From NCBI RefSeq assembly GCF_900103875.1, contig NZ_LT629705.1, positions 5,217,001 to 5,281,000 on the forward strand: 64,000 nucleotides of DNA. The letters run 5' to 3'. This DNA comes from Pseudomonas arsenicoxydans (lineage in GTDB: Bacteria > Pseudomonadota > Gammaproteobacteria > Pseudomonadales > Pseudomonadaceae). Below the pieces are notes generated by a model. The model saw only the letters and a program-made list of their open reading frames with translations, ran no database searches and was not told the origin of the DNA. This document shows positions 19,830 through 39,669 of this stretch, piece by piece (the stretch's first letter is position 1; every line of letters starts with the position of its first letter). Position numbers and translations under genes: made by a program.

Positions 19830-20145
19830 CCGTCGTCAATGCTGGCAGCTTTCCTAGTCATCCAAGCCGTATCTTGCTTCGTGGCCCAGCGCGCCACCTG
19901 CTGCCTTATCACTAGCTTTACCCTACTGCTATCGAATAGATACCGCTTACCCCATTTCTGGAACGTTCCCCTAACAGTTTTGTTTTGTCCCGCTTCAAAA
20001 GCGGGTTACTGAGTAAGGTAGGGGCGTCGACTTTTATCGCCCGCGGTTTCGTATATGCAGCAAAGGGCCGCAGTGGGTCCTTTTCTGAGCGCCGCGAGAG
20101 GCAGAAAATCGCTAAAACCGGCCGCTCACGAGCGACCGTTTTCGA
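19830..20145. other. Intergenic, probable decayed mobile DNA
   Basis: About 315 bp between the small acidic protein and the IS1182-type element. On the minus strand a start-less open frame (about 20006-19694) reads GTFQKWGKRYLFDSSRVKL and so on, basic and aromatic, but I cannot name a family. No promoter or terminator was recognised. Probably a remnant of an element. Confidence 0.35.
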
Positions 20146-21758
20146 CCGATTCTGTTGAAAAAGTCGGATTTTCAGCTCGCCTGAACTCAGGCACGACCAC
20201 CACCGGAGAACCTACTCACCACATTCAGTGGTTTCTCGGCCCTTCGTTGACCTTTGCTGCTCTGTTATTGGGTTAATTTGAGGTTTTTTGCTTCGTGCAG
20301 GCGCACCTATCCCGTAGAAGGTGGCCCTTGAGATGCAAGTTTGGCCAGACGTCGCAGGTTCTGTACCGCGGCCGCCAGCGTGAACTCATCGGACGCGCCA
20401 CTCATGCCACGTAGTCGCAAGCGATCCAGTTTCAGGATGCGCTTGAGGTGGGCAAACAACATTTCAACCTTCTTACGTTCGTGGCGAGAGCGCACATACT
20501 CCGGCGTCGCCGCGATGCGTCGAGCCACATCGCGAGCGGCTTCATGGACGCTGCGAGCGATCTTGCGGAACGCAGTGTTCGGGCAGCACTTGGCTTTCAT
20601 CGGACACGTAGCGCAGTCGGCCTGTCGGGATCGGAAGATGATGGTGTTGGCTTTGGTGACGTGTGAACGCTCATTCTTGAAGGCTCGCCATTCGCTGCGC
20701 AATGGGTTGCCGGCCGGGCAGCGGTATTCCTCAGCCTCTTCATTCCAGTGGAAATCGTTACTCGAAAAGCTGTCGTTCTTGCGCTCGGTTTTGTCCCACA
20801 CCGGCACATGCGGCTCGATGTCTTTTTCCTCCACCATCCAGGCCAGCATCGGAGCTGTACCGTAAGCGGTGTCGCCGATGAGGCGCTCTGGCTTGATGTC
20901 GAACTGCGCTTCGACCCGATCGATCATCGTCTTGGTGCTCTCGACTTCTGCGGTTCGATGAGCCGGTGTGGGTTCCACATCCATGATCACGCCGTGCTCG
21001 GTATCGATCAGATAATTCGTGGAGTAAGCGTAGAAAGCTGGGCCGCCTGAAGCAGCGGTCCAGCGGGCCTGAGGATCCGTCAGCGACAGGCGCTTCGGTA
21101 GCGTTTCGGCCAGAGCCTCTTCATCGAGTGCCTCAAGATACTCACGCACGGCGCGGGTGCTCAGGGATGGATCGCTCCAGTTGACCGGTTCATCTCCCGG
21201 TACGCCGCGCTGCCGACTCGCATCCGCTTTGATGATGCTGGCGTCCACGGCAAAGCCTTCGCCCTTGACCAGACCGGCGTCCATGCAGCGACGCAGGACT
21301 TCATTGAACAACCAGCGAAACAGATCACTGTCCCGAAAACGGCCGTGTCGATTTTTGGAAAAGGTCGAGTGGTTGGGGATTTCGTCTTCAAGGCTCAACC
21401 GGCAGAACCAGCGATACGCCAGGTTCAAATGGGCCTCTTCGCACAACCGCCGCTCTGAGCGAATGCCGTAGCAATAGCCGACGATCAGCATGCGAATCAT
21501 CAGTTCGGGATCAATCGACGGACGCCCAATCGGGCTATAGAAATCGGCGAGGTAATGGCGCAGGTCGCTCAGATCAAGACACTGATCAATGCTGCGCAGA
21601 AGGTGATTGGCTGGGATGTGATCTTCAAGGTTGAACGAGTAAAACAGTCGCTCCTGCCCACTCGATAACTGTCCCATCATGCTGTGTGATCCCCCTCCGG
21701 CCAATGCGGAGATTTTGCCGGAGGCCAGCCAGGGGAGCTACTTTTTCAACAGAATCGG
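20146..21758. mobile_element. IS1182-type insertion sequence
   Basis: A perfect 19-bp inverted repeat bounds it: CCGATTCTGTTGAAAAAGT at 20146-20164 and its reverse complement at 21740-21758. The single gene inside is a full-length transposase on the minus strand. The exact outer boundary could be a few bases further out, because a target duplication could not be fixed by eye. The element looks intact and potentially active. Confidence 0.75.
20307..21680 (-). CDS. IS1182-type transposase
   Basis: A 457-residue DDE transposase when started at the second in-frame Met cluster (MMGQLSSGQERLFYSFNLED); 8 extra residues are possible. Visible blocks: the N-terminal domain IGRPSIDPELMIRMLIVGYC, the catalytic Asp in EGFAVDASIIKADASR, the second Asp in ERLIGDTAYGTAPM, a zinc-like CATCPMKAKCCP, and the late Glu region RKKVEMLFAHLKRIL. 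It catalyses cut-and-paste movement of its own element. No disruption is seen. It lies inside the inverted repeats at 20146 and 21758. Confidence 0.9.
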   Translation of the reverse strand: MMGQLSSGQERLFYSFNLEDHIPANHLLRSIDQCLDLSDLRHYLADFYSPIGRPSIDPELMIRMLIVGYCYGIRSERRLCEEAHLNLAYRWFCRLSLEDEIPNHSTFSKNRHGRFRDSDLFRWLFNEVLRRCMDAGLVKGEGFAVDASIIKADASRQRGVPGDEPVNWSDPSLSTRAVREYLEALDEEALAETLPKRLSLTDPQARWTAASGGPAFYAYSTNYLIDTEHGVIMDVEPTPAHRTAEVESTKTMIDRVEAQFDIKPERLIGDTAYGTAPMLAWMVEEKDIEPHVPVWDKTERKNDSFSSNDFHWNEEAEEYRCPAGNPLRSEWRAFKNERSHVTKANTIIFRSRQADCATCPMKAKCCPNTAFRKIARSVHEAARDVARRIAATPEYVRSRHERKKVEMLFAHLKRILKLDRLRLRGMSGASDEFTLAAAVQNLRRLAKLASQGPPSTG

Positions 21759-26133: not shown

Positions 26134-26856
26134 TCAATGGAGCAGACGCGCAGGCGGCACGATGATGGACCCGCCCCCTACCCCGCTGAACAATTCCATC
26201 CGGGCGGCCACGAAAGCATCCCACGCCACCCGATGGGCAAACGTGGGTAGCGAGATGGCTTCTCCACAATCAAAATCCTCTAGCGCTGCGTCCACGATGG
26301 CCACTGCGCTCTGGAATTGGATCGGCTGTAACCCCGCATACAAAACGGCTTGAACACGTACGGCTACGTTATTGAAGCGCTGTTGCAGCGTGTCGGATAG
26401 CGAGAGCAGAAAAGCGCTACTCGCCGACTCTATGGCAGCGCCGGAACTCGCCTCGAACACGGGCACCAGGTTGATCACTGTTCCGGTGTCCCGTTTTACG
26501 AAACCATTCGCCAAGGCATAAGACAAGCATACGGGAGCTGTCACGCCCAAGGCGATTGTCGCCCCTATCTCATGCTCCTCCGTGATGTCGTGATGGTTGA
26601 TCAGCAACGTGATACTGGCGTCCTGGCTTAGTACGCTCTCAATGCGGAGCACTTCGGCGGACACTGCCAAATCGGCATTCAACACTTCAACAGAACGACC
26701 GCTGGAGTCGGTGAGCGATGCAGCGAGTGTCATTAATCGCGGCCGATTTTCCGCAATCAAAATCAAGTCGTAACCCCGCTGTGCCAGTCGATGGGCGAAA
26801 GCTGTGCCTATTGCGGTATCTGCGCCGGTTATGACGGCCGTGCCTTTATGAGACAT
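26134..26856 (-). CDS. SDR-fold protein lacking the catalytic Tyr-Lys pair
   Basis: From the ATG at 26856 (GGAGC upstream) the protein is 240 residues: MSHKGTAVITGADTAIGTAF carries a variant nucleotide motif, and the middle has a DxA-type strand end (VLNADLAVSAEV) and INHHDITEEHEIG where NNAG normally stands. At the active site the family pattern Y-x-x-x-K is replaced in SGAAIESASSAFLLSLSD: no Tyr or Lys is in place. It is therefore likely non-catalytic. An upstream in-frame start at 26982 adds 42 unlikely residues. It is divergent from the GlxA-type regulator at 27112 and may be its target. Confidence 0.75.
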   Translation of the reverse strand: MSHKGTAVITGADTAIGTAFAHRLAQRGYDLILIAENRPRLMTLAASLTDSSGRSVEVLNADLAVSAEVLRIESVLSQDASITLLINHHDITEEHEIGATIALGVTAPVCLSYALANGFVKRDTGTVINLVPVFEASSGAAIESASSAFLLSLSDTLQQRFNNVAVRVQAVLYAGLQPIQFQSAVAIVDAALEDFDCGEAISLPTFAHRVAWDAFVAARMELFSGVGGGSIIVPPARLLH

Positions 26857-27111
26857 GCGGTTTGCTCCAAAGGCGGGTGCATGAAATACGATCAGAGTAG
26901 AGAGCGCCTTAATGTCGGTAAAGGCCGTAAAACCATCGTTTTCGGCCTTCGCGCGCGCCGGCCCTACTGATTTACCCGGCACAAAACGCTAACCCCCTGG
27001 CGAAATCGCGGTTCTGCTTGCAGTCCCGCGATTTTCGCGCATGCTAACGTTTCGCATGTCACCAGGGTCCATGCGTCAAGCCAGTGTTCAACTGGGCGAA
27101 CGGGAGTCTTT

Positions 27112-28056
27112 ATGCAAAGTGTGGCGTTAATCGTACGGCCCGATTTTCAGTTGATGAGCCTGGCTGCGCTTTCAGCTTTCGAGTTTGCCAACCTGGCTGC
27201 GGGTGAAAAACTCTACGACATCAGCGTGCTCTCCGAGCATGGTGGCCTGGTCGCCAGCTCGCTGTTCACCTCGGTTGATACTCAGCAGTTCAACAAGACT
27301 GATTTCGATACCGTCTTGATCAGCGGTGCAATGGATCGCAGTTCGGCGTCGGACGGTATTCACTCCTTTCTGGTTGAAGCCAATGCCGATTCACGGCGGG
27401 TAGGTGCTTTGTGCGTCGGCGCTTTTGCGCTTGCCGAGTCCGGGTTGCTCGATGGGCGTCGAGCCACAGTGCACTGGGCTCGCGCCAAGGAAATGCGCGA
27501 CAGATTCCCTGCAATCAAGGTTGAAGAAGATCGCATCTTCATCATCGATGGCAAGATCTGGACCTCGGCGGGCATGACCGCTGCGCTCGATTTAACCATC
27601 GGTATGGTCGAGAAGGATTACGGTGCCGCACTGGCCCGGACCGTCTCGCAGCGGCTGGTGCTTTACCATCGCCGTGCGGGTGGGCAGTCCCAGCATTCGG
27701 CGATGCTGGAGCTGAGTCCGAGCTCCGACCGCATTCAGCAGTCACTGGACTTCGCTCGAAAAAACCTGCGTCGCGACCTTTCCGTAGAAGACCTGGCGGA
27801 TGCGGCGTGCCTGAGCCCTCGGCAGTTCAGTCGAAGCTTTCGCGAGCAGACCGGAAGCTCCCCCGCCAAGGCCATCGAAAACCTGCGGCTGGAGGCCGCC
27901 CGATTGATGATCGAACAGGGCCGTCTAACGCTCGAAGCGGTGGCCTCGGAGACCGGCTTTGGCGACCGCGAACGTATGCGCCGGGCCTTCCTGCGCGTAT
28001 ATGGCCAATCCCCGCAATCGTTGCGCCGGACCTTCGGTTCTAACGCCGACGTATAA
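27112..28056 (+). CDS. GlxA-type transcriptional regulator (DJ-1/PfpI + AraC)
   Basis: A 314-residue fusion: residues 1-190 form a DJ-1/PfpI domain (with VGALCVGAFALAESGLLDGR, the nucleophile-elbow Cys position) and residues about 205-310 form an AraC double helix-turn-helix (VEDLADAACLSPRQFSRSFR and LEAVASETGFGDRERMRRAF). These regulators sense small metabolites, for example in amino-acid or quaternary-amine catabolism. It is divergent from the SDR-like gene on its left, with about 255 bp between them, and convergent with the MFS gene on its right. Confidence 0.9.
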   Translation: MQSVALIVRPDFQLMSLAALSAFEFANLAAGEKLYDISVLSEHGGLVASSLFTSVDTQQFNKTDFDTVLISGAMDRSSASDGIHSFLVEANADSRRVGALCVGAFALAESGLLDGRRATVHWARAKEMRDRFPAIKVEEDRIFIIDGKIWTSAGMTAALDLTIGMVEKDYGAALARTVSQRLVLYHRRAGGQSQHSAMLELSPSSDRIQQSLDFARKNLRRDLSVEDLADAACLSPRQFSRSFREQTGSSPAKAIENLRLEAARLMIEQGRLTLEAVASETGFGDRERMRRAFLRVYGQSPQSLRRTFGSNADV

Positions 28057-28143: not shown

Positions 28144-29355
28144 TTAATTTGAAGGCTGAAGTTGCGGTGCAGGTCGACGACCGGATGTGTAGGCCAGGAT
28201 CAAGGCCGTTGCTGTGCAGAGGGCGCTGACAAAGCCAAGGTTGGCCAACGAGCTGTAGTGCAATGTCAGGGAGCCAAGACCCGCACCCAGTGAGAAACCG
28301 AGGTACATGAAGGAGGCGTTGAGCGACAACACCACCGGCGCGCTCGCAACGCCAGCCACGCCGACCAGCCTCGTTTGCTGGGCAGGATAAAAAGCCCAGT
28401 GCGCCACGCCCCAGGCAGCGATGGCGAGGACAACCGGCACAATTACAAACTGTTTGTCGATAAAGTGCGGCGCCAGCGACAGGACGACGAACGCGGTAGT
28501 GGATGTCGCCAACGCTGGCAGGATCACTGCGCGCGGACCGCTGCGGTCTACCGTTCGGCCGCTGATGGCCAGGCCGATTGCGGCTGAAACACCCCAGCCA
28601 AATAGCACGAAGCCTATCGCCGGGCCATTTATCAGGGTGGTGGCCTCCAACAGCGGAGCGAGGTAGGTGTAAGTGGTGTAGCTCGCCATCGCCCACAACG
28701 TAGTGATCAGCAGCGTATGCAAAACCGCAGGCTGAGCCGCAGTTGAAATGCGCTGGCGCAGGCTGGCAGTAGCGAGTCCGGTTCCTATCTCACGTGGAAG
28801 GCCTATCAGCAAACCGGCAACGGCCAACGCGGCAATGATCGCGACGCTGCCGAACGTGGCGCGCCAACCCATTGCCGCTCCCAGCACGGTGCCCGCCGGA
28901 ACACCCAGGGCAATGGCGAGCGACAGTCCACCGTTGACGATAGCGATGGCGCGGCCTCGCTGTTCAGGCGGCACGACCACGCTGGCCAGTGCGTTCGCAC
29001 CGGGCACATACACTGCCGCCGCGAGCGCCAGCACCAGTCTCGCGGCCATCAACGACCAATAGCCACTGGCCGTGAAGGCCAGCAGATTGGCCACCGCAAA
29101 TAATGCCATGGCCCCAATCAGCAGCCTGCGCCGGTTCAGGTTCCCGGTCAGCGCAGCCAGCACTGGAGAACTCAGTGCATAGGCCAGGGCAAATACAGTG
29201 ACTAACTGGCCCGCCGTGGCAACGCTGACGTCGAGATCCTTGGCCATGCCGGGAAGCAGGCCCGCGATCATGAAGCTTTCGGTACCGACGGCAAACGTGC
29301 CTAAGGCCAGCCAATACAGCGGCCGGTTGCTTTTGATGTATTGGGTTGAGTTCAT
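28144..29355 (-). CDS. MFS transporter, DHA1-type drug/metabolite exporter
   Basis: A 403-residue inner-membrane protein with twelve hydrophobic segments, started at MNSTQYIKSNRPLYWLALGT (29355) rather than 15 codons upstream. The N-terminal TESFMIAGLLPGMAKDLDVS and the loop 2-3 region LNRRRLLIGAM are typical of the DHA1/AraJ-PbuE branch of the major facilitator superfamily, which exports small molecules by proton antiport. It is the last gene of a four-gene leftward operon with an alkene reductase (46 bp upstream), a hypothetical protein and an alpha/beta hydrolase. Confidence 0.85.
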   Translation of the reverse strand: MNSTQYIKSNRPLYWLALGTFAVGTESFMIAGLLPGMAKDLDVSVATAGQLVTVFALAYALSSPVLAALTGNLNRRRLLIGAMALFAVANLLAFTASGYWSLMAARLVLALAAAVYVPGANALASVVVPPEQRGRAIAIVNGGLSLAIALGVPAGTVLGAAMGWRATFGSVAIIAALAVAGLLIGLPREIGTGLATASLRQRISTAAQPAVLHTLLITTLWAMASYTTYTYLAPLLEATTLINGPAIGFVLFGWGVSAAIGLAISGRTVDRSGPRAVILPALATSTTAFVVLSLAPHFIDKQFVIVPVVLAIAAWGVAHWAFYPAQQTRLVGVAGVASAPVVLSLNASFMYLGFSLGAGLGSLTLHYSSLANLGFVSALCTATALILAYTSGRRPAPQLQPSN

Positions 29356-29400
29356 GGTATTCCAGCTGTGGAAATGTGAATTAAGCCACCCGGGTCTCAA

Positions 29401-30510
29401 TCAAGCCGAAACTAGCGTCGGATAGTCCGTGTAGCCCACTTCGGCGCCGCCGTAAAAAGTGTTGCGGTCGTACGCGTTCAATTCAGCACCGGATTTGAAA
29501 CGAGCGGCCAGATCCGGGTTGGCAATGAACATGCGCCCGTAAGCGATGGCATCGGCATCCCCGGCAGCAATCGCTTCGCTGCCACTCTGCGCGGTGTAGC
29601 CTCCCGCCGAGATCACCGGTCCTTTAAAAAGACGGCGGAATAATCGAGCGTTGTTGGCGACATCCAAACTCAGGTCATCACCCAGGCCTACCGACGAAGC
29701 GCGAGGCTCGATCAAATGCAGATAAGCGACGCCACGCTCGCTCAATGCCTGGATGACATAGCTGAACAGGTCCGTGGGGTTGCTTTCCTTCATGTCATTG
29801 AAATTGCCCGACGGCGACAGACGTACCCCCACTTTGTCCGCGCCGATGGTGTGGGCGATCGCATCGACCACATTCAGAAGCAGGCGAGCGCGGCCTGCTA
29901 TCGAACCGCCGTAGGCATCTTCACGCAGGTTGCTGTTGTCCTGAAGAAATTGGTCGAGGAGGTAACCGTTGGCACTGTGAATTTCGACCCCATCAAAGCC
30001 TGCGGCCATCGCATTTTCAGCGGCCTGACGAAAGTCATTGACGATGCCGGGCAGTTCATCGATGTCCAGAGCGCGCGGGGTTTCGAAAGGCACCAGCGAA
30101 AATTCGGGTGTGAACGCCTGGCCGTCGACCGGAGCCAATGCAGATGGCGCCACCGGCAAAGCGCCCTCGGGGCTATAGGAAGAATGTGAGGTCCGCCCGC
30201 TATGCACGATTTGCGCAATGATGCGCCCGCCTTGAGCGTGCACTGCCTTGGTCACTGCGGACCATCCGGCCACTTGCTCGGCCGAGTACAGCCCCGGCAT
30301 ATTCGGATAACCCATGCCCTGCACACTGACGCCCGTGGCTTCGGTAATGATTAACGCGGCTGAAGCACGTTGAGCGTAATACTCGGCGCTCAGGGCAGTC
30401 GGTACGCCACCGGCAGCTGAACGCATGCGCGTCAGGGGGGCCATGACGATGCGATGAGGCAGTTGCAGCGAACCCAATCGCAGGGGGGCATAAAGATTTT
30501 CGATGGACAT
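29401..30510 (-). CDS. Alkene reductase, Old Yellow Enzyme family
   Basis: A 369-residue FMN-dependent ene-reductase, started at MSIENLYAPLRLGSLQLPHR (30510; GGAG upstream). Visible family features are PHRIVMAPLTRMRS near residue 20, the substrate-binding His/Asn pair in VEIHSANGYLLDQFLQDNSN near 180, and the FMN-phosphate region SAGGYTAQSGSEAIAAGDAD near 305. Such enzymes reduce the C=C bond of enones, maleimides or nitro compounds with NADPH. It is paralogous to the reductase at 32531-33637. Third gene in the operon from the motif-bearing promoter near 32240. Confidence 0.9.
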   Translation of the reverse strand: MSIENLYAPLRLGSLQLPHRIVMAPLTRMRSAAGGVPTALSAEYYAQRASAALIITEATGVSVQGMGYPNMPGLYSAEQVAGWSAVTKAVHAQGGRIIAQIVHSGRTSHSSYSPEGALPVAPSALAPVDGQAFTPEFSLVPFETPRALDIDELPGIVNDFRQAAENAMAAGFDGVEIHSANGYLLDQFLQDNSNLREDAYGGSIAGRARLLLNVVDAIAHTIGADKVGVRLSPSGNFNDMKESNPTDLFSYVIQALSERGVAYLHLIEPRASSVGLGDDLSLDVANNARLFRRLFKGPVISAGGYTAQSGSEAIAAGDADAIAYGRMFIANPDLAARFKSGAELNAYDRNTFYGGAEVGYTDYPTLVSA

Positions 30511-30601
30511 GAGCAAGTACTCCGCAATAGCTGAAGTCAAAAAGGGGTAATGAATTGCAGACGCAGGACTTGGGTTTCACCCAGCGTGGCGGACGAGCCG
30601 A

Positions 30602-31321
30602 TTAGCTGAAAATGAGCTTGCTGAAGTCCAGCGACACAAGCAAAGGCTCGGGGATTTTTTGCCCCGCTTCGTCGTAGGCGTAGATACGGCGTTTGGTCGG
30701 CATCATCAGACCCTGTACCTCGCAATAATCACTGACGTAGTTAGCGCCGGTAGCTCCGCCAAGAATGTCGACGGTGTAATCATGGCGACGCATCAGGCCA
30801 TCCGGCCCGAAGTGGGTGATCTGCTTGCGGGTATGGCTCTCGATATGATCAGGAAAGGTGACTTCCAGACGCCGCCATACTTCGCCGTTTTCCTTCCATG
30901 GCTCGATCTCCCTGGATTCGAAGCCGGGGTAGGTGTAGAGAAAAGGCGAAGTCAGGTAGGTCCACAACGCTTCGCTGGCAAAATAGGCCACATGCAGCAG
31001 GTCCCAAGGGCTTTCCAAGGTATGACCAACGAAGGAGTCGGCGGGTTGGTCGCGTTGTTCGACGATGGTTCCATCGAGGGTTTCCAAGGTCAGTTGACCT
31101 GGTAAGAACACGCTGCGTTGGTTCGGTCCGGCGAAGGGGGTGATGCTCAGGCGCTGGGTCTGCGTCTCGATATCCAGTTCTTTATCGAACAGCTGACCCG
31201 GCTGCTGCTTGAGGTGCCAGATAGCACCGTCGATCGAAACGTTGGCTCGCAGTTTTGCGAAGCTATTCCAGCAATCCAGGCCACCGTGGGCCTCAACGGC
31301 GAAAGCGAGTAGATCATTCAT
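30602..31321 (-). CDS. Conserved hypothetical protein
   Basis: A 239-residue protein starting MNDLLAFAVEAHGGLDCWNS (31321). No signal peptide or transmembrane segment. The sequence alternates strands with aromatic residues (LDGTIVEQRDQPADSFVGHT, LLHVAYFASEALWTYLTSPF) and ends in PEPLLVSLDFSKLIFS, suggestive of a beta-barrel lipid- or ligand-binding fold, but this is an impression only. I do not recognise the family. Its position between an alpha/beta hydrolase and an alkene reductase in one operon suggests a role in the same small-molecule pathway. Confidence 0.7.
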   Translation of the reverse strand: MNDLLAFAVEAHGGLDCWNSFAKLRANVSIDGAIWHLKQQPGQLFDKELDIETQTQRLSITPFAGPNQRSVFLPGQLTLETLDGTIVEQRDQPADSFVGHTLESPWDLLHVAYFASEALWTYLTSPFLYTYPGFESREIEPWKENGEVWRRLEVTFPDHIESHTRKQITHFGPDGLMRRHDYTVDILGGATGANYVSDYCEVQGLMMPTKRRIYAYDEAGQKIPEPLLVSLDFSKLIFS

Positions 31322-31397
31322 CAGGTGTGCTCCAAAAAGAGGTTTTATATCGATGCGCAAGGGTTCGGTAGGGATTTCACCGCGCCGGACCGGCGAC

Positions 31398-32078
31398 TCA
31401 GAGTGCGGCGCGAAGCACCAGTTCAGCGACTGCGCCAGGCTGGGAAATCATCGAGCAATGCCCAGCGTCAACCGTGGCCTGCACGGCTCCGATCTTGGTC
31501 ACAAACATTGATTGAAGTTCAGGCGGGATGGCGTTGTCTTGTGTCGCGAGCAGATACCAGCTTGGCTTGCTGTGCCAGGCGGCCTCGGTGACGGGCGTGG
31601 ATAAAGCCTCGGCAGAGGTTGGCCGCTGGTTCTTGAACAGTGCAACTTTCTCCTGTTCAGAGACGTCCTGGGCAAAGCCTTCAAAGACACCCGTGTGGGT
31701 CAAACTGAGGAAACCTTTTTCGTCCGGACGCAATTCCGCGCTCATTGGTGATGGCGCGACAAGGGCTGTCAGGCCAAGTGCCGACTCGCCGACATCAGGA
31801 ACGAACGCATTGATGTAGACCAATCCCGCGACGTTCTTGTGGACACCCGCCTGGGTAATCACCGCGCCACCGTAGGAGTGACCAACCAGCAACACTGGGC
31901 CGCTTTCTGCTTCGAGTGCCTCTGCGACCGCAGCCACATCTTCGTTCAACCTTGTCAGGGGAAGATGCACCACGCTGGTGGCGACCCCACCGGCTTCGAT
32001 CAACGCCCGGGCTTTGTCCCAGCAGTCACTGTCGGCCCAGGCGCCGTGGACAAAAATGGCTTTCTTGATAGCGGTCAT
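31398..32078 (-). CDS. Alpha/beta hydrolase
   Basis: A 226-residue serine hydrolase of the small esterase/hydroxynitrile-lyase-like branch. The oxyanion region AIFVHGAWADSDCWDK is at the N-terminus, the nucleophile elbow GHSYGG (Ser near residue 87) and the late catalytic His in VDAGHCSMISQPGAV. It has no signal peptide. First gene of a leftward four-gene operon; a long 5' region (about 130 nt) separates it from a -10 element that follows a 28-bp motif shared with two other promoters in the window. Confidence 0.9.
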   Translation of the reverse strand: MTAIKKAIFVHGAWADSDCWDKARALIEAGGVATSVVHLPLTRLNEDVAAVAEALEAESGPVLLVGHSYGGAVITQAGVHKNVAGLVYINAFVPDVGESALGLTALVAPSPMSAELRPDEKGFLSLTHTGVFEGFAQDVSEQEKVALFKNQRPTSAEALSTPVTEAAWHSKPSWYLLATQDNAIPPELQSMFVTKIGAVQATVDAGHCSMISQPGAVAELVLRAAL

Positions 32079-32210: not shown

Positions 32211-32266
32211 ATCTTGGGCTGTATAGGTTGAGGACATCGGTCGAAAAACCAACATTTCAAGCCATT
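32211..32266 (-). promoter_or_regulatory. Shared 28-bp promoter motif, copy A
   Basis: Plus-strand 32239-32266 begins GGTCGAAAAACC and ends ATTTCAAGCCATT. It holds the inverted repeat GAAA-N8-TTTC and matches copies B (34743) and C (39083) at most positions. On the minus strand the TTCGAC edge is followed by 23 nt and then CAAGAT (32211-32216) as a -10 candidate, at the same distance as in B and C. It precedes the alpha/beta hydrolase operon. No good -35 is present, suggesting dependence on an activator. Confidence 0.65.
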
Positions 32267-32463
32267 GTGTGTTGACCGAAAAAGGCGTTTTTTTTGGCGC
32301 GTGCCGAAGCGCCGCAGTGACCACATGTGTCGCTGAAACGAGTGGGTAGGAAGGGATGGAGACTAACGCCACTGGGACGCGTCTTCAGACGGTAAGGCCC
32401 TGACAGCTGAATTACATCCGGTAGGCAAACGATAAACGGGCTCATCAGAGCTCGTGTACAACC

Positions 32464-32487
32464 AAAAAGCCCCCATGAGGGGGCTTC
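32464..32487 (-). terminator. Rho-independent terminator after alkene reductase
   Basis: The stem AAGCCCCC/GGGGGCTT (32467-32474 and 32479-32486) with a 4-nt loop is followed on the minus strand by a T-run (TTTTTGG), about 45 nt downstream of the alkene reductase stop at 32531. Confidence 0.85.
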
Positions 32488-32530
32488 GTTTGGTCTCTAC
32501 GCTACAGCCGTTCGCGCTCGGCGAACGACG

Positions 32531-33637
32531 TTACGCAGTCGCTTCTTCTTTATAGAACTCGTAGTCGGTGTAACCCACTTCGGTACCGCCAAAGAAGGTC
32601 GGACGGTCATACGCGTTCAGCGGCAGGTTGTGGCGCAGGCGCTCCGGCAAGTCCGGGTTGGCGATGAAGTGGCGACCGAAAGCCACCAGATCGGCGTCGC
32701 CAGCCTGAAGGATGGCCTCGGCGGATTCGCCGTCAAAGCCACCGGCAGCAATGATCACGCCTTTGTAGTGTTTGCGCATCAGCTGGGCAGCGACCGGCGC
32801 CGGGTCGGCATTCTCATCCTCGATGTTGCCCAGGATGCGCGGCTCGATCAGGTGCAGGTAAGCCAGGTTCAGCGGCGCCAGTTGTTGCGCGACGTAGGTG
32901 AACAGGCCTTCTGGATCGCTGTCGCCCATGTCACCCCAGGTGCCGCTCGGGCCGACACGTACTGCCACCCGATCACTGCCCCACACCGAAATCAGCGCGT
33001 TGGTCACTTCCAGCAGAAAGCGTGCGCGGTTTTCGAACGAGCCGCCGTAGATGTCGGTGCGCTTGTTGCTGTTGTCCTGCAGGAACTGGTCGATCAAATA
33101 ACCGTTGGCACCATGCAGTTCCACGCCGTCAAAACCGGCTTTCACGCCACGTTCGGCAGCAGTGCGGAAGTTTTCTACCAGGCCTGCGATGTCTTCGATG
33201 GTCAGGGCGCGGTTCGGGGTATTGGGTACCCAACCTTCGGTGGTGTAAGCAACGCCGCCGTGCAGGACTTCCGATGGGCCGACGGGGATGCTGCCTGCAG
33301 GCTGCACGTCGACATTGGATTGGCGACCGGCATGATAAAGCTGCAGAAAGATCTTGCCGCCTTTAGCGTGCACGGCGTCAGTGACGTGTTTCCAGCCCGC
33401 GATCTGGCTGTCGTCAAACAGGCCCGGTGCGCCGAGATAGCCGTTGCCGTTTGGCGCGGCGATGGTGGCTTCACCGATCAGCAAACCGCCTTCGGAAGTG
33501 CGCTGGGCGTAGTACTCGGCCATCAGGGCGCCAGGACGAGCGCCCTCTTCGGCACGCATGCGGGTCAGCGGTGCCAATACAATGCGATGGGCGAAGGTGA
33601 ACCGCCCGACTTTAACTGGGGAATGAAGTTTGGACAT
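32531..33637 (-). CDS. Alkene reductase, Old Yellow Enzyme family (second copy)
   Basis: A 368-residue FMN ene-reductase of the NemA/xenobiotic reductase branch. It shows HRIVLAPLTRMRAEEGARPG near residue 18, the substrate His/Asn pair in VELHGANGYLIDQFLQDNSN near 180, and the flavin-phosphate loop AAGGFDGESAEAILQAGDAD near 300. It would use NADPH to reduce activated alkenes or nitrate esters. It is a single-gene leftward unit with its own terminator. It differs throughout from the paralogue at 29401, so the pair is not a recent duplication. Confidence 0.9.
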   Translation of the reverse strand: MSKLHSPVKVGRFTFAHRIVLAPLTRMRAEEGARPGALMAEYYAQRTSEGGLLIGEATIAAPNGNGYLGAPGLFDDSQIAGWKHVTDAVHAKGGKIFLQLYHAGRQSNVDVQPAGSIPVGPSEVLHGGVAYTTEGWVPNTPNRALTIEDIAGLVENFRTAAERGVKAGFDGVELHGANGYLIDQFLQDNSNKRTDIYGGSFENRARFLLEVTNALISVWGSDRVAVRVGPSGTWGDMGDSDPEGLFTYVAQQLAPLNLAYLHLIEPRILGNIEDENADPAPVAAQLMRKHYKGVIIAAGGFDGESAEAILQAGDADLVAFGRHFIANPDLPERLRHNLPLNAYDRPTFFGGTEVGYTDYEFYKEEATA

Positions 33638-33873
33638 GGTTGCCTCGATTGAAGTGTATGTGTAGAGCGATTGGATATCTGCCCGGGTCGATAGCCATGT
33701 GGCCTTTCGGGGTTGGGGCGCTTGGCATCAGTAAAGGTGATTTTCCGCAGTGGATAAATGGGCCGTGTTTCCCAACACTTCGGACTTTTTGGCTGTAATG
33801 CCGGTGATCATGGAGATCGAACTGTCGATGTTCGGATAACGGCGCCCGCACTCATGCAAGCGCCGCAGGTTGC

Positions 33874-34629
33874 TCACTGGGCGTAGAGTTCCAATACCTG
33901 TGTGTTGAACTCAGTGACAAAGGCGTGTTCATCCGCCCCGGCATTAGCGCGCATTGGCTTGGCCCGCTCGACCAGGATTTCCACCGCGTCCGTGCCCAGC
34001 ACCGCTATCGTCTCGGCAATGAACTCATCTAATGGCATCGCCAGTTCGACTTCGGAACTGTTCATCAACTCGGTACGTACCCATGGCGGCGCGATTTCCA
34101 GCACCTTGACCGAGGTATCGCGCAGCATGAAGCGCTGTGACAGTGCATAAGAATGCAGCGCCGCCTTGGTGGCGCTATACACCGCCGTCAGCGCCATGGG
34201 CACGAAACCGAGTACCGAAGAGGTGTACGCCACATAGGCGTCATCGGCCTTTTTCAGGTGCTCGATCAGCGCCGATGTCATGCGAATGGGGCCCATCAAA
34301 TTGGTGGTAACGGTCGACACCAGCAATTCGTCATCCACTTGGCCGGCCGCAGTGTCCGGCAACATGATCCCGGCGTTATTGATCAGCACGTTGAGCTGCG
34401 GGAATTCGCTGATCAACTGTTTCGCGACCGCGGTAATACTGGCGGGATCGGTAATATCCAGTTCGACCGCGTGCATGCCCGGGTTGGCCGCAACGACGGC
34501 TTCCAGATGGCCCTTGCGTCGACCGGAGATAATCACCTGGTTTCCCAGTTTGTGCAGTGCTTCGGCCAGCCCACGGCCAATGCCAGAACCGCCGCCGGTG
34601 ATGAAGATGGTGTTTTGAGTAAGTTTCAT
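33874..34629 (-). CDS. SDR family oxidoreductase (DltE-like)
   Basis: A 251-residue classical short-chain dehydrogenase started at MKLTQNTIFITGGGSGIGRG (34629; AGAGGA upstream), with the nucleotide motif TGGGSGIG, the NNAG motif (INNAGIMLP), catalytic Ser region YVAYTSSVLGFVP and the Y-x-x-x-K pair in VYSATKAALHSYA. The C-terminal half matches the DltE-like subgroup. A longer in-frame start (34797) would cover the promoter and is rejected. It is divergent from the LysR gene at 34943 and preceded by motif copy B. Confidence 0.9.
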   Translation of the reverse strand: MKLTQNTIFITGGGSGIGRGLAEALHKLGNQVIISGRRKGHLEAVVAANPGMHAVELDITDPASITAVAKQLISEFPQLNVLINNAGIMLPDTAAGQVDDELLVSTVTTNLMGPIRMTSALIEHLKKADDAYVAYTSSVLGFVPMALTAVYSATKAALHSYALSQRFMLRDTSVKVLEIAPPWVRTELMNSSEVELAMPLDEFIAETIAVLGTDAVEILVERAKPMRANAGADEHAFVTEFNTQVLELYAQ

Positions 34630-34942
34630 GGGTAAGTCCTCTGAGATTGCGCAAATGCAAAGCGTGAATGATTGAGAAAAAGGGCGGGTTGCCCGTGCTG
34701 TGAATTCAGGGTCTATGCTAGGCGCGAACAAAAAAGCACATGGGTCGAAATACCGACGTTTCAGGCCATTCGCTGGCTGCACGATTGGCAAACTCAAATG
34801 CAGAGCGTGCAGCCAGACTGGGCCGTCACTTCAGGTTCATGAAAGTTACCGGCCCCCATGAATAGCCGGTGTCCCTTCCCAATTCCCCCGCCCGCCTCTA
34901 CTCTGCATTGACCTTCCCTGCGCACCGAGCACACCTCAAATG
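34630..34942. other. Divergent intergenic region with motif promoter
   Basis: About 310 bp between the leftward SDR gene and the rightward LysR gene. It contains motif copy B and its -10 element. A repeated GCTGCACG/CGTGCAGC pair (34776-34816) can fold into a short hairpin. No small open frame with a convincing ribosome site was found. Confidence 0.5.
34715..34770 (-). promoter_or_regulatory. Shared 28-bp promoter motif, copy B
   Basis: Plus-strand 34743-34770 begins GGTCGAAATACC and ends GTTTCAGGCCATT, with the GAAA-N8-TTTC inverted repeat. On the minus strand TTCGAC is followed by 23 nt and then TAGCAT (34715-34720), the same hexamer at the same distance as copy C. The promoter reads into the SDR gene starting at 34629. 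Confidence 0.7.
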
Positions 34943-35830
34943 ATGGACAGCCTCAGCGGCATTACGGCCTTCATTCATGTGGCCGAAACCCGCAGCTTTA
35001 CCGAAGCCGGTCGACTGTTGGAAATCTCCTCATCAGCAGTGGGCAAGAGCGTGGCGCGCATGGAAGAACGCCTGGGTGTGCGGCTGTTCCATCGCAGCAC
35101 CCGCAGCGTCACCCTGACCACCGAAGGCGAGCTGTTCCTGGACCGCTGCAAGCGCATCCTCAGCGAAGTGGAAGCGGCAGAAATGGAGCTGCTGGAACTG
35201 TCCGCCACGCCACGCGGCAAGGTTCGAATCAGCGTTCCGATTCAGAATGTGTTGATCATGCCGGTGCTGGCCGGATTCATGCGCGCCTACCCGGACATCG
35301 AACTGGACGTGGACATGTCCGACCGCATGGTGGATGTGATCGAGGAAGGTTTCGACGCGGTGATCCGCACAGGCGCACCGCAGGACTCGCGGTTAATGGC
35401 GCGCAAGTTGGGCGGCTACCAATTGCAATTGGTGGCCTCGCCGACGTATCTGGAACGCCATGGCGACCCGACGCACCCGGACGATTTGATCCGCCACGTG
35501 TGCCTGCTGCACAAGTTTCCGGCCACCGGAATGATCGAGCGCTGGCCGCTGCGCGTCGGCGACACGCACATCGAGCCGAACCTGACGCGTGCCTTGACTT
35601 GCACCACGATGGACCCGCTGACGTACCTGGCAATCGATGGAGTGGGGATTGCCTGTCTGCCGGACTTTTCAATCCGTGAACCGCTGGCGGACGGCAGGCT
35701 GAAGGTGGTGCTGGAGGATTACACCGACCACACCGGCAACCTGTGGATGCTCTGGCCTGCGTCGAAGCAGACAGCACCGAGGCTGCGAGTGTTGATCGAC
35801 TTTTTCAAAGACAACATTCTGAAGGGTTGA
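34943..35830 (+). CDS. LysR family transcriptional regulator
   Basis: A 295-residue regulator with the N-terminal winged helix MDSLSGITAFIHVAETRSFT and LLEISSSAVGKSVARMEERL, and an effector-binding domain starting SATPRGKVRISVPIQNVLIM. It is of the CrgA-like subgroup with VIEEGFDAVIRTGAP. It is divergent from the SDR gene and convergent with an MFS gene (2 bp from stop to stop), so it is the obvious candidate regulator of the SDR gene. An ATG three bases upstream (34940) is also possible. Confidence 0.9.
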   Translation: MDSLSGITAFIHVAETRSFTEAGRLLEISSSAVGKSVARMEERLGVRLFHRSTRSVTLTTEGELFLDRCKRILSEVEAAEMELLELSATPRGKVRISVPIQNVLIMPVLAGFMRAYPDIELDVDMSDRMVDVIEEGFDAVIRTGAPQDSRLMARKLGGYQLQLVASPTYLERHGDPTHPDDLIRHVCLLHKFPATGMIERWPLRVGDTHIEPNLTRALTCTTMDPLTYLAIDGVGIACLPDFSIREPLADGRLKVVLEDYTDHTGNLWMLWPASKQTAPRLRVLIDFFKDNILKG

Positions 35831-35832
35831 AA

Positions 35833-37053
35833 TCAGCGTTGCAGGGACTGGGCGATCGGAGTCTTTTGGATGCCGAAACTGAGCATCACCGCCAGCCCGA
35901 GCAAACCGATGCCCGCGCCCAACCAGAGAGCCGACGGCACACCGGCATGATCGACCATCAAACCACCCAATAATGAACCTGAGGCAATGGCAATCTGAAA
36001 GGTCGTGACCAGCATTGCCGAACTCGCCTCTGGCAGTTGGGGTGATGTCAGTTGCATCCAGCTGCTCACGCCCAGAGGGATCGCACCGTAAGCGATTCCC
36101 CACACCAATACCGCCAGCGACACGGCCATCCCCTGCAACGCAGGCAAGGCCAATTGTGCTGTCACCATCAGCAATACCACGGCGCCCAATGAGGCGCGCA
36201 AATGGGTGGTGATGGTCCCGGCCATCGCAAAATTCGCCAGCATGCCGACCAGGCCGAAACCCAACAGAATCGCGGTGATGGCCGTTGGTGAGAAGCCGGC
36301 GTCATGGCCAAGGAAGGGAGCAATGTAGGTGTAGGCCGTAAAATGTGCCGCCACCACAGTGCCCAATAGCAACATGCTGCGACGGGCATTGCTGCGCGAC
36401 AGAAATGCCACGAGCGCGCGCCACTTCAAGCCTTCGTTGGAAGGCAATGACGGCAAGGTCAACGCTTGCGCAATCAGCGCCAGCAACGCGAGCCCTGCTG
36501 TCACGGCAAAGGACATGCGCCATGAAAACAGCGTGCTGACAAACGTCCCGAACGGCACTCCGAATACCGTAGCCAGAGTGATCCCCGCGAAGATCAAAGC
36601 AGTGGCCTTGGCTGCCTTCGACTGGCTGACCAACCGCCCCGCCGCCGCAATGGCCACAGCCCAAAATCCCCCAAGCGCAACACCGAGAAGCCCGCGCCCC
36701 AGCAACATGACTGCCAGTGAAGGAGCCAATGCCGACACCACATTGGAAGCCACCAACACCAGGGTCAGCAGCAGCAATAAGTGACGCCGGTTCATACGGC
36801 CCGCTCCCAGCATGATCGCCGGCGCCGACACTGCGGCGACCACACCCGGCACGGTGACCATCAGCCCTGCAACACCCTCGGTGACGTTGAGGCTGTTGGC
36901 GATCTGCGGCAAGACGCCTACCGGTAGATATTCAGTAGTAACAAAGGCAAATGCGCCAAGGGCAACGGAATACACCGACAACCAATCGCGTGAGGAAGGC
37001 GCTTGCTCCTGAGGCTGCGCTGAAGCAGCAGGTATTGCGTGTGAATCGTTCAT
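35833..37053 (-). CDS. MFS transporter, DHA1-type
   Basis: A 406-residue, twelve-segment membrane protein, started at MNDSHAIPAASAQPQEQAPS (37053). Typical blocks are TTEYLPVGVLPQIANSLNVT in the first helix pair and MNRRHLLLLLTLVLVASNVV after the 2-3 loop. It resembles arabinose-efflux and purine-efflux permeases, which export small organic molecules with protons. Its gene runs head-on into the LysR gene at 34943 and is divergent from the Gfo/Idh/MocA gene at 37285. Substrate unknown. Confidence 0.85.
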   Translation of the reverse strand: MNDSHAIPAASAQPQEQAPSSRDWLSVYSVALGAFAFVTTEYLPVGVLPQIANSLNVTEGVAGLMVTVPGVVAAVSAPAIMLGAGRMNRRHLLLLLTLVLVASNVVSALAPSLAVMLLGRGLLGVALGGFWAVAIAAAGRLVSQSKAAKATALIFAGITLATVFGVPFGTFVSTLFSWRMSFAVTAGLALLALIAQALTLPSLPSNEGLKWRALVAFLSRSNARRSMLLLGTVVAAHFTAYTYIAPFLGHDAGFSPTAITAILLGFGLVGMLANFAMAGTITTHLRASLGAVVLLMVTAQLALPALQGMAVSLAVLVWGIAYGAIPLGVSSWMQLTSPQLPEASSAMLVTTFQIAIASGSLLGGLMVDHAGVPSALWLGAGIGLLGLAVMLSFGIQKTPIAQSLQR

Positions 37054-37284
37054 GGGACAGTTCCACAAGAAATGAGTGGCGCCATGTTAGGTATCGAGCA
37101 GCCGGCGAAAAACAGGGCGCAACTCCAATCACTGCGGATCAATCACTCCACAATCAGACGATTCACACCGTTCATTAGCGCCATCCGTGTCCGAAGTGTT
37201 CTGCCCTCTGGCCGGTTTTTTCCCACGCGCTCACTCCATAGACTCCACCTCGACAATCATTCATTACCTTGCGAGGACTTTCCC

Positions 37285-38388
37285 ATGAGATCCAAACACT
37301 CACCGATTCGCGTCGGCATTATTGGCGTAGGCAACTGGGCACGCCATGGCCACCTGCGCGTGCTTAACCTTTTGCCGCAGTATCATTTACAGGTGGTCTA
37401 CAGCGAACGGCGTGAACGTGCTGAAGCAGCGGCCGGCGAGTATTCAATCTCCGAGGTTGCCGACTCGGTAGAAGCACTGGTCAATAACCCCGAAGTTGAT
37501 TTGGTAGTGGTGCTCAACACCGCGCCCCAGCACGAAAAAACCGTGCGTGCCGCCATTGCTGCCGGCAAGGATGTTTATTGCGAATGGCCATTGACGACGA
37601 CCACCGCTGACTCGCAGAACCTGCTGCAACTGGCCAACAAGACGGGCGTGCGTCACATCGTCGGTCTGCAGCGCCGCCATGCACCGCACAACCGTTACCT
37701 GCAAGATCTGCTGCAGCAAGGTTACGTCGGCAAAGTGCGTTCAGTGCGCATGCATGTCAGCATGAATTACTTCCAGGCCGTGCGACCCAATGCGCTGCGC
37801 TGGACCGCACCGGAAGAAAACTTCTCCAGCGTGATTGCAATCTATGCCGGCCATTTCCTGGACATGCTTTTCACGGCGACTGGCTGGCCGCTCAGCGTGT
37901 CAGGCCTGATGGTCAGCCAGTTCCCGCAGGTGACCATCAAGGAAACCGGCGAAGTACTGCCGAGTACCGCGCCTGACCAACTGGTGCTCAGCGGCATGCT
38001 GGAGGATGGAGGTGTTATCTCCATCCACATTGAAGGCGGCAAGCGAAACGGCTCCGGCGTGCAAATCGACATCACCGGTGATCAGGGCGACCTGAAAATC
38101 AGCAACCGTTCGGCGTTTGGCGATGTAGGCGACGACTATGTCATCGAGGGCGCGCATGGCGATAACCTGACGCTGGAGGTGTTGCCGCTGCCTGACAATT
38201 ATCAGCGCCTGCCGGCCTCGTCGTTGCCGTCAGCGGTGCTTGAACTGGCAGAGCTCTATCACGTGTATGCGCAGGATGTTGCCGAAGGCACTCAAGCGGC
38301 GGCGACGTTCAACGATGCATTGCGCCTGCATCAGCTGCTGGATGCGGCAAAGGGCGGGACTCAAACTCCCCTCAATTGGGTCGCGTAA
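37285..38388 (+). CDS. Gfo/Idh/MocA family oxidoreductase
   Basis: A 367-residue NAD(P)-dependent oxidoreductase. From the ATG at 37285 (GCGAGGAC upstream) it begins with a dinucleotide motif, IRVGIIGVGNWARHGHL (G-x-G-x-x-A form), and has the family catalytic-site region AGKDVYCEWPLTTTTADS (the usual EKP replaced by EWP, near residue 97) and a C-terminal substrate domain. The family acts on sugars, inositol or their derivatives. An EWP rather than EKP loses the usual catalytic Lys, seen in some members. A longer start at 37072 overlaps the opposite promoter and is rejected. Confidence 0.85.
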   Translation: MRSKHSPIRVGIIGVGNWARHGHLRVLNLLPQYHLQVVYSERRERAEAAAGEYSISEVADSVEALVNNPEVDLVVVLNTAPQHEKTVRAAIAAGKDVYCEWPLTTTTADSQNLLQLANKTGVRHIVGLQRRHAPHNRYLQDLLQQGYVGKVRSVRMHVSMNYFQAVRPNALRWTAPEENFSSVIAIYAGHFLDMLFTATGWPLSVSGLMVSQFPQVTIKETGEVLPSTAPDQLVLSGMLEDGGVISIHIEGGKRNGSGVQIDITGDQGDLKISNRSAFGDVGDDYVIEGAHGDNLTLEVLPLPDNYQRLPASSLPSAVLELAELYHVYAQDVAEGTQAAATFNDALRLHQLLDAAKGGTQTPLNWVA

Positions 38389-38526
38389 CGACTGATGCCT
38401 GTGAAACTTCTCGGTATTGAACAATCGAGTATGAGACTCCGTTGGCGCAACCGGGGCGGATACAGACTCGCCCCGATGCGCCATTTAATCTCAGGGGCCA
38501 TTGTTGGGTCATCGCGGAACCAGCTC

Positions 38527-38931
38527 TTACTCAACCGAATCCGGGAAACGTGCGCCGAACATCGGTAGGCCGCTTGCCGAACTGCCGGTGGTTGCCTCGT
38601 CCTGGAGAACGTCCCAGTGCTCGACCAGAATGCCATTTTCGAGACGCACGATATCGACTGCAATGAGCGCGGCAGGTTGACCATTGCCAGAGAAACGGCC
38701 GTGCACCATAACCTTGTCACCTTCCGCCATGATGACGCCAGGTTCGTAAGTCAATGTATCGGGCAGGCTTTTGATCAGGTCAAACAGCCCCTGACGCCCA
38801 GGCGCAATAAGGGCACTGTGCTGAATGTAGGCAGGAGACCAATACGCTTCGGCAGCAACGTAGTCCCGTTTATTGAACAACGTATCAAAAGCTTCAAGCA
38901 CGATGGATTTGTTCTGCGTTTCAATAGTCAT
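38527..38931 (-). CDS. NTF2-like / SnoaL-type protein
   Basis: A 134-residue cone-shaped fold protein, started at MTIETQNKSIVLEAFDTLFN (38931). The pattern RDYVAAEAYWSPAYIQHSAL followed by IVRLENGILVEHWDVLQDEA is typical of the SnoaL-like polyketide-cyclase/ester cyclase group within the NTF2 superfamily. These bind or isomerise small organic molecules. It is preceded by motif copy C, linking it to the same control as the SDR and alpha/beta hydrolase genes. Confidence 0.85.
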   Translation of the reverse strand: MTIETQNKSIVLEAFDTLFNKRDYVAAEAYWSPAYIQHSALIAPGRQGLFDLIKSLPDTLTYEPGVIMAEGDKVMVHGRFSGNGQPAALIAVDIVRLENGILVEHWDVLQDEATTGSSASGLPMFGARFPDSVE

Positions 38932-39669
38932 GATCGTTCCTGTCTGGATGAGATTAGTTGGGTGACGACGCACGCAGACTAATGGGAGGTGGTGATTGCA
39001 GTGGCAAGGGGGATGGCTTGACCTACCGTCCACTCGGGTTGTTGGTGCCCATGCATGCTAGTCCGGCGGATTTGAATGCATAGGTCGAAAAACCCGCATT
39101 TCTTGCCATACCTTTTGAGCGGCAGCGGATCTCGATCATTGCGGCGTAACCGGCAATTGTGTCGGGGCACAGTCCTGAAAATCAGACGATAAGATAAATT
39201 TTCAGACCCCAACGCAGAACTCCATCTCCCCAGGCAAGGCGCTCCCTGCGCCTTTCTCACACACTCGGCTCTAACGCTATCGCGCTGCATAACAACAAGA
39301 GCCGCGAAAAATGACTAGTTTCCCATCTGCTATCGAAAACCAAACAGGCCATATCGGCGCCCTTATCTATTTAAAATAGATAAATTAATTCACCACTCAG
39401 CGTCATCAGGAATAATTTTAAATAGTGGTATTTCGATTGTCATCGCAATAGTTGCGATGAGCGGTTTTGGAGCTTGCATTACACGGCACCACATTAATAC
39501 AGGGGGCGACCTTTCGCTTTCAGCAGGATATTCAGAACAATAAAATCACGCGCCATTTATCGGGCTAGTTAACATTAACTACATACTGATCCTTCGCGCG
39601 CATTGCGTTGACCTGGAAGTTTTTCCGTTGCTTCTATTACTTAAAAACAACAAATGGAGCGCTATACAA
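38932..39669. other. Long intergenic region with motif promoter and AT-rich OprD upstream region
   Basis: About 740 bp without a supported gene. The left part holds motif copy C and its -10 element. The right part (39340-39660) is AT-rich, with TTTAAAATAGATAAATTAAT near 39369, and probably carries the OprD-type promoter and its control sites. A pair TTGCGATGAGCGG / GTCATCGCAATAG near 39438-39462 could form a hairpin. No small ORF with a convincing ribosome site was recognised. Confidence 0.5.
39055..39110 (-). promoter_or_regulatory. Shared 28-bp promoter motif, copy C
   Basis: Plus-strand 39083-39110 begins GGTCGAAAAACC and ends CATTTCTTGCCATA. It has the GAAA-N8-TTTC inverted repeat. On the minus strand TTCGAC is followed by 23 nt and then TAGCAT (39055-39060), exactly as in copy B. 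It reads into the NTF2-like gene starting at 38931. Confidence 0.7.

Follow-up and report, generated by a model that had tools for sequence, protein, structure and literature searches.

A putative operator of a GlxA-type regulator shared by four leftward promoters of Pseudomonas arsenicoxydans

The DNA analyzed here, referred to as the window, is a stretch of 64,000 nucleotides of Pseudomonas arsenicoxydans (contig NZ_LT629705.1, positions 5,217,001 to 5,281,000), in which a 27-bp element occurs before leftward genes in the neighborhood of a gene encoding a GlxA-type regulator. The regulator has a DJ-1/PfpI domain (PF01965, positions 56-167) and an AraC-type helix-turn-helix (HTH) domain (PF12833, 228-306). 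Its gene is divergent from that of a short-chain dehydrogenase/reductase (SDR), which would be one of the targets of the element lying between them (operator 4). The preliminary description of this DNA had named as target genes a hydrolase operon with an alkene reductase and an exporter, an SDR gene, and an NTF2-like gene, and these assignments agree with Pfam. The features are listed below in window positions, and genes are referred to by their first coordinate.

26134..26856, minus strand: SDR (Pfam; start codon chosen within a longer open reading frame; relatives beside GlxA in many loci checked)
26894..26899, minus strand: -10 TACTCT of operator 4, 23 nt from the 27-mer
26923..26949, minus strand: operator 4, weaker (matrix score and relaxed genome pattern), preceding SDR 26134 and divergent from the GlxA gene
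27112..28056, plus strand: GlxA-type regulator, proposed owner of the operator (Pfam PF01965, PF12833, PF00165; co-occurrence with the site)
28144..29400, minus strand: MFS exporter (Pfam PF07690)
29401..30540, minus strand: alkene reductase of the Old-yellow-enzyme type (Pfam PF00724)
30602..31360, minus strand: unknown protein, no Pfam match (homologues in three other genomes, beyond an SDR adjoining GlxA)
31398..32078, minus strand: alpha/beta hydrolase, first gene behind operator 1 (Pfam PF12697)
32211..32216, minus strand: -10 candidate CAAGAT of operator 1, poor (3/6), 22 nt from the 27-mer
32239..32265, minus strand: operator 1 (exact match), preceding hydrolase 31398, unknown 30602, alkene reductase 29401, and MFS 28144
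32531..33637, minus strand: second alkene reductase, N-ethylmaleimide-reductase like, under the NCBIfam cut-off (Pfam, NCBIfam)
33874..34629, minus strand: SDR behind operator 2 (Pfam; relatives, 65-70%, directly before GlxA in loci L134-L137 and L139, see below)
34715..34720, minus strand: -10 TAGCAT of operator 2, 22 nt from the 27-mer
34743..34769, minus strand: operator 2 (exact match), preceding SDR 33874, which is followed by alkene reductase 32531
34940..35830, plus strand: LysR-type regulator, unsupported as operator owner (comparison of loci)
38527..38931, minus strand: SnoaL/NTF2-like gene behind operator 3 (Pfam PF12680)
39055..39060, minus strand: -10 TAGCAT of operator 3, 22 nt from the 27-mer
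39083..39109, minus strand: operator 3 (exact match), preceding SnoaL/NTF2-like gene 38527

The 27-mer GGTCGAAANACCNNCNTTTCNNGCCAT has three exact matches on the plus strand of the window, at 32239, 34743, and 39083, as against a mean of 0.00 matches to its pattern in shuffled windows; read along transcription, that is leftward, the element is ATGGCNNGAAANGNNGGTNTTTCGACC. These are the three sites for which a shared motif had been claimed, and the inverted repeat GAAA-N8-TTTC noted in them is found in all three. A genome scan had been proposed as a check on whether the motif is a dispersed repeat. With up to 3 mismatches allowed across the whole 6,502,878-base genome, the 27-mer pattern matched just 3 times, always in the window, and the pattern read backwards, used as a control, gave 0 matches. 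A shorter core pattern (up to 2 mismatches) was unselective, with 16 matches vs 14 for its control; it was kept out of the evidence, as were single 3-mismatch matches in other genomes. The count of three sites proved to be incomplete, as a position matrix revealed a fourth, weaker site at 26923-26949 with a score of 23.4; the next-best match in the window (39412, score 14.5) was considered as a further site and treated as chance. A relaxed pattern (up to 3 mismatches) recovered the four window sites and one 3-mismatch match elsewhere in the genome, with 0 for the backwards control. The four sites span 12 kb. Near them, the segment 41083-42461 carries a DUF2867 gene and a DJ-1/PfpI gene, with no operator at the listed scores.

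The promoters associated with these sites are similar in layout. At 34743 and 39083, the same hexamer, TAGCAT, lies exactly 22 nt past the 27-mer (equal to 23 nt past TTCGAC), as had been described; the description extended this spacing to 32239 as well, but the hexamer at 22 nt there is CAAGAT, with 3/6 consensus bases, and GATACT lies 3 nt further on. Site 26923 has TACTCT at 23 nt. The earlier remark that none of the first three promoters has a good -35 stands, in that no -35-like hexamer was seen by eye 17 nt upstream of the -10 positions at 32239, 34743, and 39083, whereas the operator 4 promoter has a passable -35, TTTACC (4/6), 17 nt ahead of TACTCT. This difference suggests that the three promoters without a -35 depend more on an activator. 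The spacing was also counted in the relatives described below. The 19 non-redundant sites of the window type have 21 TANNNT hexamers at offsets 0-37, 17 of them at 22-24 and 12 at 22; for the 56 sites of a variant type, the corresponding number is 66, with 44 at 22-24, 40 at 23, and 10 at 12. Many variant sites also have a TTTGAG- or TTGAGG-like hexamer after the operator, 17 nt ahead of the -10.

We propose that the 27-bp element is very probably the operator of GlxA 27112-28056, which upon a signal would activate the four leftward promoters together. The C-terminal double HTH of GlxA would bind adjoining the -35 position, at approximately -35 to -62 as placed from the -10, and would offset the absent or weak -35 via contact with RNA polymerase; the DJ-1/PfpI domain would sense the signal, upon which the four promoters would fire together. 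The units predicted to respond are SDR 26134, the hydrolase-unknown-alkene reductase-exporter row, the SDR-alkene reductase pair, and the SnoaL-like gene. The sites, their spacing, their exclusivity in the genome, their co-occurrence with GlxA, and the co-variation described below were computed, and from these we infer binding, activation, the operons, and the inducer. As to the last, the enzymes behind the operators (alkene reductases, SDRs, and hydrolase, together with the exporter) and an invariant cysteine, Cys101, in the DJ-1 domain lead us to guess at a small molecule that is reactive or resembles a nitrile. The preliminary description had argued for a single activator of a small, local regulon; the four clustered sites, the lack of a convincing site elsewhere in the genome with the patterns used, the near-fixed -10 spacing, and the missing -35 in three of four promoters bear this out, activation being read from position only.

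It is improbable, but the most durable of the alternatives, that GlxA binds the element and chiefly represses. The site ends at the -35 position, and position alone is compatible with repression; however, three of the four promoters have no -35 and would hence be weak without help, and AraC-family regulators are mostly activators (PMC8151288).

The choice of GlxA as the regulator draws on a comparison of genomes. In a genus sample of 398 genomes drawn from a larger group, a GlxA orthologue (at least 82%) occurs in six, including the window's own, and all six carry sites. Four of them have two sites each beside relatives of window genes, and a further one, G228, has three: the first adjoins GlxA and an SDR, the second precedes another LysR gene, and the third has no related genes near it. 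Named genomes yielded 11 GlxA orthologues of at least 80%, and LysR 34940 is near (96-98%) in five of them, L129-L133. With sites called at a matrix score of 16, counterparts of operator 2, in matching position, and of operator 4 are present in 5/5 of these loci; a counterpart of operator 3 lies ahead of the SnoaL-like gene in L129, L130, and L133, and a second operator faces the GlxA side in L129, L131, and L132. In the five of the other six loci that were checked for neighbors (L134-L137 and L139), GlxA is directly preceded, in the same orientation, by an SDR 33874-like gene, and its other side has a match like SDR 26134. The matrices were seeded with sites of the window and its relatives (group A) and with the matches of that first matrix (group B). 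Seed sites are not independent in score, because the matrices were built from them, and column-shuffled matrices served as the control: 42 matches were found in 80 loci, the best 80 of 248 confirmed GlxA matches, vs 1-2 with shuffled columns.

A variant of the operator, approximately ATGKCCTRAAAAGTGGYATMTATGACA, accompanies more distant relatives. It lies between positions -600 and +1500 relative to the start of GlxA in 60 of 69 further loci (GlxA identity 55-61%) from Pseudomonas, Burkholderiaceae, Phyllobacterium, Bradyrhizobium, Mesorhizobium, Rhodanobacter, Nevskia, Caulobacteraceae, and others, and 20 column-shuffled variant matrices gave 0 matches in the same loci. Approximately nine of the 60 positive loci supplied matrix seeds, and the number of 60 was reached already in the first round, before retraining. 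The variant matches total 80, of which 65 are inside that range and 15 elsewhere in the loci. Among the non-Pseudomonas loci checked, the operator has a member of the 26134 SDR family next to it (36-41% identity) in 9/10. In the four Pseudomonas loci checked, the variant operator lies between a GlxA relative of ~57% and a nitrilase-like gene, whose product in one case scores 472.9 bits against a Nit6803-like family with a cut-off of 502.6; in the window genome, operators 1 and 2 are the sole 3-mismatch matches to this nitrilase-type variant. In locus L155 (Burkholderia sp. Ac-20365), there is a variant operator at 20130-20156 (score 31.4), ~10 kb from GlxA; a long open frame that contains CxxCH motifs follows it at 160 bp and is a possible further target.

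A clade of Pseudomonas paralogues (59-61% identity), of which the window genome has a copy (59%) at 5024604, provides a contrast. Neither the window-type nor the variant form of the operator was found at the loci of this clade; its members have a block of their own before the divergent SDR, ATGTCCNNAAANCGTACTTTAAACGTCA, usually followed by TTTGAG, which the expression used found in 22/25 loci. The paralogue and window operators are alike on the ATGTCC side and differ on the promoter-proximal side. The paralogue block occurs once in the window genome, against four sites of the window's own type. In a comparison of 112 proteins (107 different, as some were fetched twice), the second recognition helix carries E287/R291 in 80/80 proteins with a site nearby and in 7/7 members of their clade without a match, and R287/E291 in 25/25 paralogues; R291 aligns with an arginine of AraC (2k9s). 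The cysteine of the DJ-1 domain, Cys101, is kept in 80/80 and 25/25 of the proteins compared.

These data bear on the idea that the element is used by some other regulator, or by an alternative sigma factor, that was inherited along with GlxA. The absence of a -35 in three of the four window promoters and the rigid -10 spacing would suit such a factor. However, GlxA is constant beside the site (as the loci were chosen for it), while the other neighbors vary between SDR and nitrilase-like genes across alpha-, beta-, and gammaproteobacteria, and the co-variation of the second HTH with the operator points to the GlxA protein as the user, so that we regard this alternative as very unlikely. More broadly, a GlxA subfamily of alpha-, beta-, and gammaproteobacteria might share one cassette (ATGKCC-RAAA-core-GACM, ~22-23 nt, -10), in which the E287/R291 to R287/E291 charge swap re-codes the promoter-proximal half and insulates two paralogues in a cell, with the conserved DJ-1 cysteine as a sensor of a reactive small molecule; we offer this extension tentatively and would give it somewhat less than an even chance.

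The preliminary description had named two LysR-type proteins, at 24435 and 34943, and the GlxA-type protein as candidate regulators, and the comparison covered the GlxA-type protein and the second of the LysR proteins. This regulator, LysR 34940, is divergent from SDR 33874, and GAAA-N8-TTTC would be its box. Operator 2 lies between the two genes as in classic LysR pairs, LysR 34940 is near a site in L129-L133, and the G228 site on contig C37 precedes another LysR gene. Orthologues of LysR 34940 (at least 92%) occur in 15/398 genomes. When 10 stretches of 18 kb with such an orthologue (92-97%) were searched, nine from genomes without this GlxA and one being the separate LysR locus of G228, none had a site at a score of 16 or more (top scores 15.9 and 15.3). 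These stretches keep exporter 35833 in 9/10 cases and an alkene reductase in 7/10 (69-70%, one 94%). Conversely, the six GlxA loci L134-L139 have no LysR 34940 within 10 kb and all have the site, five at a score of at least 16 and L138 with the variant matrix alone (25.8), and in distant loci the site adjoins GlxA. The comparison of loci does not support LysR 34940 as the owner and leaves it a slightly poorer prospect than a co-inherited factor; of the two regulators compared, the GlxA-type protein is most likely the owner, judging from these genomes. The G228 site just mentioned (9454-9480 of that locus) is an operator and promoter much like those of SDR 33874, ~90 bp before a LysR gene different from 34940 (51%); the promoter may have been captured by this gene, or it may be what is left of an operon since lost.

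That the element is a dispersed repeat without a regulatory role is hardly credible. In its favor, single 3-mismatch matches in other genomes are near chance (matches in 49/398 genomes vs ~38 for the backwards control, counted by eye) and one genome of the sample carries a repeat of similar sequence, but in the window genome the element is confined to the GlxA neighborhood and lies before genes, and its -10 spacing is near-fixed in relatives. The repeat in that genome consists of four identical 27-mers with 3 mismatches to the pattern, which are scattered in it and probably represent an unrelated dispersed repeat.

Several observations weigh against GlxA as the activator that reads this operator, or against the role given to its recognition helix. 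The -10 at site 32239 is poor. L131 has a SnoaL-like gene with no site before it at a score of 16, and the second, GlxA-directed operator seen in some relatives is absent from the window (26950-27111) and from L133 in the alignment. Of the distant loci, 9/69 have no match near GlxA at the cut-off, and the 15/80 matches elsewhere in the loci lie outside the GlxA range; moreover, loci within one clade are not independent. Seven other positions differ between the paralogues and the site-bearing clade by the same criterion as 287 and 291, and the residue swap may be a single event, because the paralogues form one clade.

Three other genomes have a GlxA relative and, divergent from it, an SDR of the 26134 family; protein 30602 has a homologue beyond this SDR, adjoining it in two of the genomes and ~1 kb on in the third, which supports the place of 30602 in the regulon of the window. 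As a marker of the regulon, this protein was rejected: homologues occur in 23/398 genomes, and when 20 of their loci were fetched, a site in the short flanks was seen in that of the window and in no other. In L129 and L132, the hydrolase, SDR, alkene reductase, and exporter genes stand in one row behind one operator; compared to these, block 29401-32078 of the window is additional and is served by a separate operator, and the window hydrolase is just 65-67% identical to theirs. Elsewhere in the window, 22625-23263 matches a transposase DDE domain and is possibly the remnant of a transposable element.

The symmetry of the operator was examined with hand-picked sites, 14 of group A (window type) and 20 of group B (variant), against shuffled columns. 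The best direct repeat in both groups has a period of 21 and is reached by 7-76% of shuffles, and inverted repeats are reached by 1-39%. For the variant group, the inverted reading fares better, being reached by 1-6% and the direct one by 7-33%; for the window group, the values are 11-39% and 61-76%, and neither reading stands out. The paralogue block favors a direct repeat with a period of 11 (1-7% of shuffles).

Regulators of the GlxA kind are frequent: 162/398 genomes of the genus contain a match with an E-value of 1e-80 or lower. To our knowledge, most such regulators have no known targets. Being readable from the genome, an operator points to genes that a subfamily may control, and the comparison with the paralogues singles out two residues and one half-site to be linked. 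Four operator strings were absent from the full texts searched, and no report on this regulator was found there, subscription journals being mostly outside that search. The kind of system is known; in the literature searched, we found neither the regulator-operator pair nor its spread nor the contrast in the recognition helix.

Several known systems invite comparison. PinR/pinA of P. fluorescens SBW25, a regulator beside a nitrilase gene on which no paper was found in the literature searched, is presumably resembled by the four loci in which ~57% GlxA relatives precede nitrilase-like genes, and differs from the window, whose targets are SDRs, alkene reductases, a hydrolase, and an exporter. 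By profile score, the best NCBIfam match of GlxA 27112 is FtrA (NF006902), at 207.7 bits and under the equivalog cut-off of 425; against GbdR, it scores 152.6 vs a cut-off of 480, too low for an equivalog. GlxA 27112 is like CdhR, GbdR, SouR, and ArgR of Pseudomonas aeruginosa in combining a DJ-1/PfpI (GATase-1-like) domain with an AraC HTH and in being divergent from a gene that is its putative target. According to PMC5806209, the CdhR site consists of two GGTCGC half-sites with a 15-bp spacer, a direct repeat with a period of 21 that is also reported for its kin, and CdhR binds well upstream in a class I arrangement. In groups A and B, the best direct repeat also has a 21-bp period, but this repeat is not significant vs shuffled columns; unlike the CdhR site, the half-sites here are ATGGCC- and CGACC-like instead of GGTCGC twice, the inverted reading scores at least as well as the direct one in both groups, and, whereas CdhR binds well upstream, the GlxA-type site abuts the -35 position.

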